Source: Crossiella sp. CA-258035 (GTDB taxonomy: Bacteria; Actinomycetota; Actinomycetes; Mycobacteriales; Pseudonocardiaceae). From it: 64,000 nucleotides of DNA. Shown in pieces: positions 18,319-50,676 of this stretch. Position 1 is the stretch's first letter. The number at the start of each line of letters is the position of its first letter. The notes below the pieces were generated by a model, which made no database searches, was not told the DNA's origin, and saw nothing but the letters and a program-made list of their open reading frames with translations. The stretch is from the NCBI RefSeq assembly GCF_030064675.1, contig NZ_CP116413.1, positions 3,194,001 through 3,258,000 of the forward strand. The letters are read 5' to 3'. Made by a program: the position numbers and the translations under genes.

Positions 18319-19251
18319 ATGTGGTCAAGCTGGAGGGGATGGGGTGCGTCGCTGGTCGCCGCCCTGGCCCTGACGACCGGGTTCGCCTCGACGGTAAATG
18401 CTGCGACAACCAACAATGACGATGTTCAGCCGCTGATCGTCGGTGGCCGCCCGGCCAGTCAGACGTATTCGTTCATGGCCTCCCTGCAAGGCGGCCAAGG
18501 GCATTTCTGCGGCGGTTCGCTGATCACCCCGACCTGGGTGGTCACCGCGAAACACTGCGTCCAGGGCCAGAGCCCCGGCAGCTTCCGCGTCCGGGTCGGC
18601 ACCACCACCTGGAACGCCGGCGGCGAGCTCGCCCAGACCGCGCAGATCGTGCCGGGCCAAGGCGACATCGCCCTGGTGCGCCTGAGCGCCCCGGTCAGCC
18701 AGACCCCGATCCCGATCGCGGCTGACGGTGGCACCGCGGGCACCGACACCCGCCTGATCGGCTGGGGCCAGACCTGCCCCACCCGGGGTTGCGGCGGCGC
18801 CCCGGTCCAGCTCCAGGAGATCGACGTCCAGGTGCAGGCCAGCGGCTGCACGGACAACTTCAACCCGCAGACCGAGCTCTGCCTCGGCGGCCAGCCCAGC
18901 GCCGGCGCCTGCTACGGCGACTCCGGCGGCCCCTCGGTCCGCCAGTCCAACGGCCGCTGGGAGCTCACCGGCGCGACCAGCCGCGCCGGCCGCGGCCAGC
19001 CCACCTGCGGCCAGGCCCCGGCGATCTACATGAACGTGCCGGCGCACAAGCAGTGGATCGACCAGGTGACGGGCGGCGACCCCGGCCCCGGCTGCGGCAG
19101 CACTGCGGCCTGGTCCGCCGAGGAGCTGTACCCACCGGGAACGGAGGTCGCGCATAACGGGCGCAAGTGGCGCTCGGCCTGGTGGAACAGGGCCCAGGAA
19201 CCGGGCGCTGGCCCGTGGTACTGGCAGGACATCGGGGCCTGTACCGCGTGA
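18319..19251 (+). CDS. Secreted S1-family serine protease with C-terminal chitin-binding-like domain
   Basis: A 310-residue exported protease. A signal peptide covers residues 1-28 ('SLVAALALTTGFASTVNA'). The chymotrypsin-fold domain begins at 'IVGG' (40-43). The catalytic triad is H79 ('TAKHC'), D116 ('GDIALV') and S202 ('GDSGGP'). The base of the S1 pocket (six residues before S202) is glycine, so trypsin-like preference is not expected. After residue ~258 comes a short Cys/Trp-rich module ('TEVAHNGRKWRSAWW', 'WYWQDIGAC') of the CBM5/12 type that binds chitin or cellulose. GGAAAGGAC precedes the ATG. A hairpin follows the stop. Confidence 0.9.
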   Translation: MWSSWRGWGASLVAALALTTGFASTVNAATTNNDDVQPLIVGGRPASQTYSFMASLQGGQGHFCGGSLITPTWVVTAKHCVQGQSPGSFRVRVGTTTWNAGGELAQTAQIVPGQGDIALVRLSAPVSQTPIPIAADGGTAGTDTRLIGWGQTCPTRGCGGAPVQLQEIDVQVQASGCTDNFNPQTELCLGGQPSAGACYGDSGGPSVRQSNGRWELTGATSRAGRGQPTCGQAPAIYMNVPAHKQWIDQVTGGDPGPGCGSTAAWSAEELYPPGTEVAHNGRKWRSAWWNRAQEPGAGPWYWQDIGACTA

Positions 19252-19259
19252 CCCCGGGG

Positions 19260-19287
19260 GCGGCGCACGGGTTCGCCCGTGCGCCGC
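19260..19287 (+). terminator. Hairpin terminator with TTCG loop
   Basis: A perfect 12-bp stem (19260-19271 with 19276-19287) is closed by a TTCG tetraloop, eight bases after the protease stop. Confidence 0.8.
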
Positions 19288-19299
19288 TGCCATTGGCCC

Positions 19300-19705
19300 A
19301 GATCGGCCCGGCTGGGCGCGGCGCGACTCGATCCGGCGCGGAGTGACGGGGCCCGACCCCGCTGAGCGCGGCCCGGCGTGGCCCGGTCCGGCGCGGGCGG
19401 CGTTGGCGCGAGGCGGACCGGCGCGGCTCGGCTTGGAGTGGCGTGGTCCGGTCCAGCGCGGCGTGGGGTGTCGCAGTACGGCGCGGCGTGGCGCGGACGG
19501 CGCGGCGTGGCGTCGCGTGGGCGGCGCGGGGCTGCGTGGCGTGGGGCGATCCGGCGCGGCTCGGCTCGGTCCGGCAACCCCTCGGTCCGGTCCGGCGTGG
19601 CTCGGCCTGGCGTGGCTCGGCTTGGCCGAGATCGGTTCGGCTCGGAGCTGCCCGGCTCGGCGCTGCCCGGACTGGCTCGGCTCGCCTTGCTCCCCTGCGG
19701 TGCCC
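19300..19705. repeat. Degenerate 5-bp repeat tract (YGGCN-like)
   Basis: About 400 bases made almost wholly of degenerate pentamers such as CGGCG, TGGCT, CGGCT and CGGTC, in register over long runs (for example CGGCGTGGCTCGGCCTGGCG near 19600). No gene is supported here. Open frames on both strands give low-complexity Arg/Pro/Ala/Gly peptides and lack start signals. It fills the space between the protease terminator and the end of tetR. Confidence 0.7.
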
Positions 19706-19710
19706 GGCTG

Positions 19711-48454: not shown

Positions 48455-49123
48455 GTGCAGTGGAACCACAACCTGGCTCTCGCGCTGCTCGGACGGGACT
48501 GGCTGGGAAACGAGCGCCTCAAGGCCTTGGCCTGCGCCGAATCCCTGCCCAACGGCAGATTCCACGTCAAAGGCCTGGACAACCACGGAATCCCCACCAC
48601 CCGCTCCCGCACCCGCGCCGCCACCTGGTCCGACGACGACATAGCGGCGGGCCGGAGCGCGGCAGTCCACGCCCGCCAACCCGACAGCCCCGCCGTGCGC
48701 CTGTACCGAGCGGTGCAAGCCCCCGAGGCCTGCTGGCTGGCGTTGGGCACGGAACGGATCGCGGTACTCCGCATCCGCGACACCGCGGTGAGAGCTGAAC
48801 CGATCGTGAGCCCCACGGCACAACGGTTGGTGCGGCAGAAGTCGGTGGGCAAGGTACTGCGCGGAGTGGGCAGGCTGGTGCGTGACGTGGCGACCGGTTT
48901 ACAGGAGGACATCGGCCGCCCGCCGCTGCACGAACGGCCGGAGGACGCGGTGCTGGAGTTCGAGTTCGAGGCACCGAGGGCGGAACTGTTGCGGGTGGAG
49001 CGGTGCAGGCAGCTGGCGGTGGGCTCAGCGAGCAGACAGGTCCGGCTGCACTTCACCGACGGTTCGTGGGCGCGAATCAGGACGGATGTCGACGGTGTTG
49101 AGGCATTGACGCTGCCTTACTGA
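48455..49123 (+). CDS. Hypothetical protein
   Basis: A 222-residue soluble protein that I do not recognise. The N-terminal half is mixed ('WNHNLALALLGRDWLGNERL'). Near residue 130 comes a basic helix ('RLVRQKSVGKVLRGVGRLVR'). The C-terminal third looks like a beta domain ('LEFEFEAPRAELLRVERC', 'VRLHFTDGSWARIRTDV'), reminiscent of PH-like modules. It lies 10 bases after the exporter gene but probably has its own promoter. The hairpin block begins 56 bases after its stop. Confidence 0.7.
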   Translation: MQWNHNLALALLGRDWLGNERLKALACAESLPNGRFHVKGLDNHGIPTTRSRTRAATWSDDDIAAGRSAAVHARQPDSPAVRLYRAVQAPEACWLALGTERIAVLRIRDTAVRAEPIVSPTAQRLVRQKSVGKVLRGVGRLVRDVATGLQEDIGRPPLHERPEDAVLEFEFEAPRAELLRVERCRQLAVGSASRQVRLHFTDGSWARIRTDVDGVEALTLPY

Positions 49124-49179
49124 CCGGGGCTCGCGACAGGGAACCAGCGACGGGGTGGCTTTTCGAAAACCTGTCCGAA

Positions 49180-49341
49180 GTCTTGAGGTTCCCCATGCCC
49201 GTCAACCTGGAGAAAACGAACCACATCCCAGCCCACGGACGTTCACAGCAACCGCCGCCAAGGCCACGCAACGCAAGGGCGGCCGTGGGCTGGGATGTGG
49301 TTTGATTTCGGAGGGTTGACGGGCATGGGGAACCTCAAGAC
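49180..49341. repeat. Long nested hairpin element A (162 nt)
   Basis: Outer arms 49180-49207 and 49314-49341 pair perfectly over 28 bp. After a small internal loop, inner arms 49219-49238 and 49283-49302 pair perfectly over 20 bp and extend outward with one mismatch and one G-T pair. The apical loop is 44 nt. AACCACATC sits at offset 39, the same offset as in element C. No gene is supported on either strand. Confidence 0.85.
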
Positions 49342-49354
49342 CTGCCTGCGTCTT

Positions 49355-49507
49355 GGCCTTTGACTTTCCCCCCCCATGCTTTGATCTCTGCCCGTCCGGC
49401 GAGGACGCTCTTGACTGTCGCCTTTGACTGAAAACCTAAGATCAAAAGCAAAAGAATGTCCTCGCCGGACGGGCAGACCACCGGAGGGGTGTGACAAGTC
49501 AAAAGCC
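49355..49507. repeat. Long nested hairpin element B (153 nt)
   Basis: Outer arms 49355-49366 and 49496-49507 pair over 12 positions with one mismatch. Inner arms 49387-49406 and 49458-49477 pair perfectly over 20 bp. The 51-nt apical part (49407-49457) is only about 39% GC, very low for this genome, and contains a further GCCTTTGA/TCAAAAGC near-match. A run of eight C lies at 49368-49375. It starts 13 bases after element A. Confidence 0.85.
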
Positions 49508-49562
49508 GGGACGAGCAGGTTGCGGGGCTGAGCAGGCTGCCGGGGCCGGTTCCAGCGTGCTC

Positions 49563-49724
49563 GCGGGCCTCTCGTCTTCTCCGCACGACCTTCCGACAGC
49601 AAACCACATCTCTCCACCCGGCCCCCGTCACGTTGGGCGGGGCGGGCGGCGGCAGGTTGCAGGGGCCGGGTGGAGAGATGCGGTCAGCAGTCTCCAGGCC
49701 GTACGGAGAAGACGAGAGGCCCGC
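49563..49724. repeat. Long nested hairpin element C (162 nt)
   Basis: Outer arms 49563-49583 and 49704-49724 pair perfectly over 21 bp. Inner arms 49607-49625 and 49662-49680 pair perfectly over 19 bp. Between them most positions also pair, giving one imperfect stem of about 60 bp. Length equals element A, and ACCT (offset 25) and AACCACATC (offset 39) are shared with A at the same offsets. Confidence 0.85.
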
Positions 49725-49750
49725 TTTGTGGGTTTTCACCCCGTGTCGGG

Positions 49751-49833: not shown

Positions 49834-50676
49834 ATGGGGGAGCGGCGTTACTGGGCCCGGCTCGGCGGGTTTGTCCTGGTCGGCGGACTGACAGTCATCT
49901 TCGGCTGTCTGCTGTTGTTGCTGCTCACCGGGCACTTCCGGGTGCACTACACCGCCGATCACGACGACACCCTCCCGCTCTGGCTGCTGATCGTGCCCGC
50001 TCTGCTGGCCATCGTCGTCACCCGGGTCGTCCCGCCCAAGGTCAAGTGGCACAACCCGTTCCGCATCGAACCCGACCGGACCCGGCTGGAGGCGGGCTGG
50101 CTCACCGGTATCGCGCTGCTCTACGCGGTCATCATGGTCTTACCGGGTGGGCCGATCTGGTTCCTGTCCGTCAAACCGTTGTTGCTCATCGTGGTCCCGC
50201 TCAGCCTGTTCTGGTACCTGCGGCGGCACGGTGGCAAGCGGGAGCGCTGGTTGCCCATGACGCCGGTGCGGTGGGTCGCGCCGCTGGCGCCTGCGGTCGT
50301 CTTCCTCTCGCTGACCTATCTTGTCGGGGCCTATCCCGAGTCCCGGATCATTCCCTCTTGGCCGGTCATGGTCTTGGTGTTCCTGTTCAACGCCGTGATC
50401 GAGGAGTTCTTCTACCGCCGTTGGTTGCAGACGCGGCTGGAGGCCGTGCTGGGACTGTGGCCCGGGATTGTGCTGGCCGCCGTGCTCTGGGCGGTGTGGC
50501 ACATCGGGATCCAGTCCCACCACGGCCTCGGCCTCGGTCTGCTCACCGTGCTGGCTGGGCACGGGGTGCGCGGGATGTTCCTCGGTTACCTGTGGGCGCG
50601 CTACCGCAACTTCCCCGTGTTGTTGCTGGTGCACGGGCTGATCAACGCGCCCTTCCTGCTCACCTCACTGCTCTGA
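49834..50676 (+). CDS. CPBP-family intramembrane metalloprotease
   Basis: A 280-residue membrane protein with about eight hydrophobic segments. The CPBP (Abi/CAAX protease-like) motifs are in the C-terminal half: 'NAVIEEFFYRRWLQTRLE' near residue 188 with the EExxxR signature, and 'AVLWAVWHIGIQ' with the FxxxH-like histidine. A last 'LLVHGLINAPF' holds the third motif. Members cleave or process membrane-bound proteins and peptides, in bacteria often linked to bacteriocin immunity. ATG 49834 is used over ATG 49804 because of the TATGTT box. It follows the hairpin block directly. Its stop is two bases from that of convergent secDF. Confidence 0.85.
   Translation: MGERRYWARLGGFVLVGGLTVIFGCLLLLLLTGHFRVHYTADHDDTLPLWLLIVPALLAIVVTRVVPPKVKWHNPFRIEPDRTRLEAGWLTGIALLYAVIMVLPGGPIWFLSVKPLLLIVVPLSLFWYLRRHGGKRERWLPMTPVRWVAPLAPAVVFLSLTYLVGAYPESRIIPSWPVMVLVFLFNAVIEEFFYRRWLQTRLEAVLGLWPGIVLAAVLWAVWHIGIQSHHGLGLGLLTVLAGHGVRGMFLGYLWARYRNFPVLLLVHGLINAPFLLTSLL

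Follow-up and report, generated by a model that had tools for sequence, protein, structure and literature searches.

The hairpin block and its surroundings

The window analysed here is a stretch of 64,000 nucleotides from Crossiella sp. CA-258035, and all positions refer to this stretch. Between a + strand gene whose product matches no Pfam family (48455-49123) and an Rce1-like CAAX protease gene on the same strand (49834-50676, start chosen by eye with another species' empty site as guide) lies a block of three large inverted repeats, A, B and C. The arms of A (49180-49241/49280-49341, 62 nt), B (49387-49412/49452-49477, 26 nt) and C (49563-49625/49662-49724, 63 nt) are 89%, 92% and 86% complementary in the window sequence. 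An earlier note on this DNA had described three hairpins here, and they are indeed present: the region 49150-49750 folds as RNA with -386.1 kcal/mol, against -256.7 +/- 6.2 kcal/mol for 20 shuffled sequences (z -20.8). Hairpins A and C are each 162 nt long, the equal length remarked on in the note, and the strings that it quoted, ACCT and AACCACATC, occur in the block.

Hairpin A (49180-49341, proposed RNA sense +) has two storeys, with a symmetric GGA/GGA internal loop separating the outer stem (49180-49208/49313-49341) from the inner stem (49217-49236/49285-49304). It is followed on the + strand by a linker (CTTTGACTTTCCCCCCC region, 49342-49387) and by a tag in sense orientation (CTGCCCGTCCGGCGAGGAC, 19 of 20 bases, 49388-49406); a weak terminator-like match lies at 49335-49356, in a scanned region with three such matches versus 1.1 expected. 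Hairpin B (49387-49477) consists of two inverted tags that face each other across a T-rich/A-rich spacer, and its outer stem is seen in the minimum-energy fold of the window copy. The second of these tags is the 20-nt tag of the C unit (49457-49476), which is the exact TGTCCTCGCCGGACGGGCAG on the + strand and reads in sense on the - strand. Hairpin C (49563-49724) is the inverted homologue of A and is assigned RNA sense - from its wobble polarity. From an alignment of 12 near full-length copies in the same genome, the whole dispersed element measures about 595 bp (49146-49742, +). Its left edge is approximate, with a short patch of similarity between copies reaching slightly further left. The element begins with GCGACGGGGTGGC and ends with GGGTTTTCACCCC, and details of the ends vary among copies. 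The left gene reads into hairpin A. The window copy is thus a tandem-gene case, in which A follows the left gene and C lies ahead of the Rce1-like gene, with no gene reading into C.

The note knew of no named family for the block, and no Rfam family reached its gathering score; there were only sub-threshold matches to miRNA precursors, in the window block and at eight further loci (seven in other genera, one in Crossiella genome G003). Literature searches, which covered openly licensed PMC papers, brought up nothing recognised as a description of this element.

Dispersal and empty sites

The genome of the window (G000; 9.17 Mb, one contig) was searched with 601 bases and compared with a genome of the same species (G111) and with three genomes of other Crossiella species (G001, G002 and G003). 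At least 26 places in G000 carry the element, 12 near full length (83-100% identity, window copy included) and 14 partial. This is a lower bound, with 40 of 122 first-look candidates scored, as are all per-genome copy counts given here (10-40 candidates scored each). In G111, 22 of the 26 places have a counterpart that bears the element and matches in one flank or both, and in the sister species G002 the element is present at 41 places or more, mostly with 71-79% identity. The flanks of the copies are unalike, except for the short patch at the left edge. There is a second type of copy, in which a different left hairpin is joined to B and C. Plasmids gave no match to the hairpin block. The location of the hairpins at gene ends would suit a set of unrelated strong terminators, an outcome that the note had named as contrary to its view, or chance palindromes. 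This explanation is refuted because sequence-related copies sit at unrelated sites, and in view also of the fold z of -20.8 it can practically be dismissed. A decayed insertion sequence, another contrary outcome named in the note, was not found.

The dispersal is MITE-like, as one suggestion of the note had it, with presence and absence between species. In G003 the window site is empty, with 19 nt between the same two genes compared to 710 nt in G000, and nine further G000 sites lack the element at the orthologous position in one or more of G001, G002 and G003. The ends of homology at empty sites lie 7, 12 or 24 nt apart in some cases and, in others, up to 175 nt apart with other sequence in between. 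Four G000 sites are occupied in G002 too (one judged by sequence, three by coordinates), and at one of the three judged by coordinates the element has the opposite direction. At one element site of G000 both G002 and G003 have instead a short hairpin, which on visual inspection resembles an ordinary terminator.

MITEs are short, non-autonomous, dispersed elements with empty sites, and a classical MITE, with terminal inverted repeats on which a DDE transposase acts in trans, would account for a dispersed, non-coding element that is absent from orthologous sites. The ends of the window copy, ACGGGGTG and CACCCCGT, can pair, and the ends of the Saccharothrix form (see below) make up a long inverted repeat. 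However, the ends vary among Crossiella copies and the order of the units differs among genera, and neither a defined set of terminal repeats nor, in a transposase search that covered Y1_Tnp, a transposase partner was found. The target-site duplication that the note proposed to look for was not recognisable at the empty sites because the compared species are too diverged. We consider a classical MITE quite unlikely.

Several other observations were made on the distribution of copies. The distance of the listed copies from the origin ranges over 0.50-3.24 Mb in G000, where half the genome is 4.6 Mb, and over 0.51-3.90 Mb in G002, where it is 5.0 Mb, with no copy nearer or farther. A solo hairpin at about 6.749 Mb in G000 (L032), also present in G111 (L135), has one outer arm from A and the other from C, and these arms do not pair in either strain; it is apparently a recombinant remnant. 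Orthologous gaps in G001 and G002 (L313, L325, L330, L318, L328) contain another repeat family of GTTGGCCGTTCTCGTACGG-like units in tandem and inverted arrangement, and a tandem repeat of about 27 nt like GCGACCAGGGACGAGCGGTCGGGGTT adjoins the left side of copy L019.

Position relative to genes

Gene context was callable at 25 of the 26 G000 places and at 28 of 37 G002 loci, using a codon-usage ORF scorer trained on seven window genes; the gene calls are approximate. Read in the A-to-C orientation, the neighbouring genes are convergent at 14 of 25 copies in G000 (10 tandem, 1 divergent) and at 21 of 28 in G002 (7 tandem, none divergent). Convergent neighbours are thus found at 35 of 53 pooled copies versus 12 of the 62 gene pairs of the window that served as background, called with slightly stricter settings (p 5e-7), and divergent neighbours at 1 of 53 versus 11 of 62 (p 0.006). 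The end of the left gene lies within 26 bp of the element at 8 of the 26 G000 places. Convergent genes of the window leave hardly any space between them: of the 12 gaps, 11 measure at most 74 nt, and nine of these are below 10 nt. A convergent gap of 459 nt at 19251-19710 holds low-complexity repeats of the CGGCGCGGCGTGG type.

Inverted homology and conservation of pairing

The note took A and C for direct homologues. The homology proved to be inverted instead: in the window copy A aligns with the reverse complement of C with a score of +20, whereas A against C scores -12 and the best of 200 shuffles -15. In all 55 full copies the inverted alignment scores higher than the direct one, and both hairpins keep lengths of 154-166 nt and fold strongly (A, -109 to -132 kcal/mol; C, -99 to -124 kcal/mol).

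For analysis of covariation, full copies were used, coming from 12 of 26 places in G000, 37 of 41 in G002 and 6 of the 23 strongest G111 rows; after removal of identical rows 48 of 55 A and 50 of 55 C sequences were distinct. In hairpin A 96.1% of cells are paired, compared to 87.1% after shuffling and 32-48% when the partners are slid; cells with changes on both sides number 231, versus 86 in shuffles. The corresponding values for hairpin C are 89.4%, 80.5% and 34-48%, with 199 cells changed on both sides versus 60; here the paired fraction is lowered because the window copy supplied the structure and some of its C pairs do not apply to G002. Counted by pairs, both-side changes occur in 14 pairs of A, a number reached by 212 of 500 shuffles, and in 19 pairs of C, reached by none of 500. 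Further pair types were not above shuffles for A or C among the Crossiella copies. The GGA/GGA internal loop does not vary among 48 copies, and this invariance suggests either that a partner binds it or that it forms an RNA fold. That pairing rather than sequence is conserved, as the note supposed, is borne out by these compensatory changes.

Stems are also exchanged. Between G000 and G111, the inner stem of A is replaced by a different version that still pairs at four of seven sites with A in both (by eye), and at the five sites with full copies in both strains one or more paralogues exceed the orthologue in similarity, for A (5/5) as well as for C (5/5). This could be expected of a selfish DNA palindrome without any function as RNA, in which conversion between arms or between copies keeps the arms complementary, since orthologous copies would then hold different, still-pairing stems and some paralogue would be the closest relative, as in these 10 of 10 comparisons. 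Such a DNA palindrome predicts neither the invariant internal loop nor the location at gene ends, nor the mismatches of G.T type in A and of A.C type in C described below, and its probability appears small. We read the exchange of stems as ectopic conversion combined with selection on pairing. Among the alternatives listed in the note, a structured RNA fits best and conversion between copies is evident; the G.T versus A.C asymmetry narrows the list, as it speaks against a single DNA strand.

Wobble polarity and the strand that folds

A G.T mismatch in the DNA of a stem is tolerated as G.U if that strand is the RNA, and an A.C mismatch on the + strand equals G.U on the - strand. Counted by pair position, the wobble-type mismatches of hairpin A are G.T at nine positions and A.C at none, and those of hairpin C, on the + strand, are A.C at 13 and G.T at one (Fisher p 1.2e-5 for A versus C). 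Counted by cells, A has 48 G.T, no A.C and five other mismatches, and C has 46 A.C, one G.T and five others. These counts omit pairs with less than 60% (cell count) or less than 50% (position count) Watson-Crick cells per species. Relative to the majority state, changes of the C-to-T type and of the A-to-G type both contribute. It follows that C would be maintained as - strand RNA and A as + strand RNA, so that, as judged from mismatch polarity, reading proceeds inward from the flanks in both. A mutation bias linked to transcription could be the source of part of the asymmetry, and would itself imply inward transcription. For Crossiella, comparison of the copies thus shows a constraint on pairing together with inward polarity.

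The opposite polarity also bears on the way the element moves. Two inverted hairpins with a spacer look like a REPIN, and a giant hairpin pair of this kind could be moved as single-stranded DNA by an IS200/IS605-type (Y1, RAYT) transposase. Such movement would agree with the bias in orientation relative to replication (48 of 66 copies the same way, p 3e-4; G000 21/25, G002 27/41) and with the Y1 matches in two carriers of the element, G001 and G002. A single DNA strand, however, predicts the same polarity in A and C; the opposite was observed, which favours two RNAs, each read inward, over a single strand of DNA. Moreover, the orientation bias may follow gene direction, and six of eight genomes gave no match to Y1_Tnp (PF01797): G000, G111, G003 and the tag-bearing genomes of other genera G195, G198 and G137. 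Transposition of single strands driven by a RAYT was rejected for this last reason, and the REPIN-like explanation is very improbable. A reverse transcriptase was likewise rejected as shared driver. RVT_1 was matched in the five Crossiella genomes and was unmatched in G195, G198 and G137, all tag-bearing, so a reverse transcriptase is not required.

Outside Crossiella the polarity is less uniform. Counted by pairs in other genera, A.C (33) exceeds G.T (15), the same lean but not a clean one, and the hairpins located before the tag show no polarity (10 versus 9). Wobble cells in Saccharothrix lean the opposite way (15 G.T versus 5 A.C), and the raw counts for the Amycolatopsis thermalba/deserti group, from a tag set without its four Crossiella loci, are opposite too.

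The 20-nt tag and related forms in other genera

Of the 297 family genomes, 72 contain the exact 20-mer of hairpin B, TGTCCTCGCCGGACGGGCAG, and these fall in 23 of the 46 genera tallied; the reversed control had none among the matches listed. Among the holders listed by name are Amycolatopsis, Saccharothrix, Kutzneria, Lentzea, Prauserella, Saccharomonospora, Kibdelosporangium and Actinophytocola. G001 and G002 carry the element but lack the exact tag.

The surroundings of the tag outside Crossiella were analysed at 95 of 111 tag loci, the other 16 being Crossiella loci, MAGs and coding hits; the loci are not independent, with several per genome. A hairpin of more than 100 nt begins 20-70 nt past the tag at 78 of the 95. 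The 10 nt ahead of the tag are 50% A, which is U-rich in the sense orientation, compared to 13-18% at distances above 20 nt. In Crossiella the 20 nt following the tag have a T content of 41% in the A unit (55 of 55 full copies) and of 56% in the C unit (18 copies with exact tag), so the U-rich tract is present in sense orientation on both strands. The sense order of the unit is hairpin, 20-nt tag and U-rich tail in Crossiella, and tag loci of other genera are alike. The strong hairpin sits about 50-90 nt ahead of the U-rich tract, and the 4-bp mini-stem of the tag itself folds no better than shuffles. In Saccharothrix the two units are reversed, with the tags outermost and inside an inverted repeat. 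At loci L090-L095 and at Amycolatopsis loci, outside Crossiella, the junction of outer and inner stem seems, by eye, to consist of two tiny hairpins facing each other, such as GGCGAAGCC and CCCGTAGGG, which gives the look of a four-way junction where Crossiella has the GGA/GGA loop.

Gene ends are preferred in other genera as well. The tag loci there are convergent at 30 of 54 and divergent at 3 of 54. Among 80 named loci, four of them from Crossiella, convergent arrangement was found for 24 of 43 tag intervals versus 52 of 339 other gene pairs, and divergent arrangement for none of 43 versus 59 of 339.

The exact 20-mer was also encountered in MAGs assigned to Hyphomicrobiales, Alphaproteobacteria and Clostridiales and in Taishania, in DNA that looks intergenic. 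It is followed by GGCTGG at four of six of these loci (L170, L180, L181, L187, L202, L240). The Hyphomicrobiales MAG has 16 places with at most two mismatches (control, 1), three of which are inverted pairs 108-130 bp apart.

A viral origin of the tag was rejected, as no exact match was present in IMG/VR. An autonomous copy with genes between tags was looked for in three intervals, each with tags on the same strand 4.4-4.6 kb apart, and this candidate was also rejected; the ORFs of one interval are presumably ordinary host genes.

Possible role of the element

A proposal for this element should account for features that comparison of the genomes brought out: its dispersal and empty sites, the inverted homology of A and C, compensatory changes, wobble polarity, location at gene ends, the tag and the U-rich tail. 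The explanation that we consider probable treats the block as a single copy of a non-coding mobile repeat, formed by a tail-to-tail pair of 3'-end RNA/terminator modules that are inverted copies of one another. By sequence comparison the repeat is scattered through Crossiella genomes, with related forms in many sister genera, and each half appears to be preserved as a folded RNA made by read-in from the neighbouring gene. Read from that gene, a module would comprise the stop codon, the two-storey hairpin of about 160 nt with its conserved internal loop, the linker, the 20-nt tag CTGCCCGTCCGGCGAGGACA and the U-rich tract. The modules may act at the RNA level as 3'-UTR or transcription-terminator units, and a pair could then end or stabilise the transcripts of two facing genes and, by virtue of its two 3'-end units, insulate these convergent genes from each other. 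Copies would spread by a trans-acting or recombination route, be retained where they are harmless or helpful, and exchange stems by ectopic conversion. The copies between tandem genes (17 of 53, window copy included) count against this model, as one module there has no gene reading into it. Further points against it are the covariation measures that do not exceed shuffles, the uneven wobble polarity in other genera, the lack of the exact tag in G001 and G002, and the mini-stem of the tag, which folds like shuffled sequence.

Parts of this arrangement resemble known systems, and the element may in part work like ERIC/YPAL or REP-type repeats. ERIC and YPAL (127 and about 168 bp; enterobacteria and yersiniae) are likewise dispersed intergenic hairpin repeats, and copies of ERIC reportedly tune the genes next to them via RNA hairpins (PMC2267715). 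They are single units of 127-169 bp, whereas the Crossiella element is about 595 bp, belongs to another phylum and combines a 20-nt tag with two inverted hairpins of two storeys each and halves of opposite RNA polarity. REP and BIME sequences, GTAG- or CGTC-tagged palindromes often present as inverted pairs, are described in one study as lying for the most part downstream of genes, in intervals flanked by convergent or co-directional ORFs, and G.T pairing in REP repeats is taken there as a sign of RNA function (PMC3733652). The likeness of REP, BIME and REPIN lies in tagged palindromes forming inverted pairs at gene ends. REP units measure 20-40 bp and GTAG REPs accompany RAYTs, whereas the Crossiella units are hairpins of about 160 nt with a 20-nt tag lacking GTAG, and PF01797 is mostly unmatched, as given above. 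Bidirectional intrinsic terminators also lie between stop codons with a U-rich tract in sense. They have a GC-rich stem directly ahead of the U-tract, where the element has as nearest stem the 4-bp stem of the tag, and they differ from an element that extends over hundreds of nucleotides, is dispersed and has a shared tag and internal loop.

A bolder and less probable version can be offered tentatively. In this version the element would represent a class of selfish gene-end elements, in which a mobile RNA module with a family-wide 20-nt tag spreads as tail-to-tail pairs between convergent stop codons only a few bases apart, each gene gaining its own terminator. Movement would occur without a RAYT or linked transposase, possibly through RNA or by tag-guided recombination.

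The G.T/A.C test gives the working strand of each hairpin from sequence alone and may serve for further repeats in bacteria. The 20-nt tag, which occurs exactly in half of the genera tallied and has no known partner protein, is a concrete experimental handle. Finally, since the convergent genes of the window nearly touch, an element with two opposed RNA ends that inserts between such genes could change how neighbours are separated.
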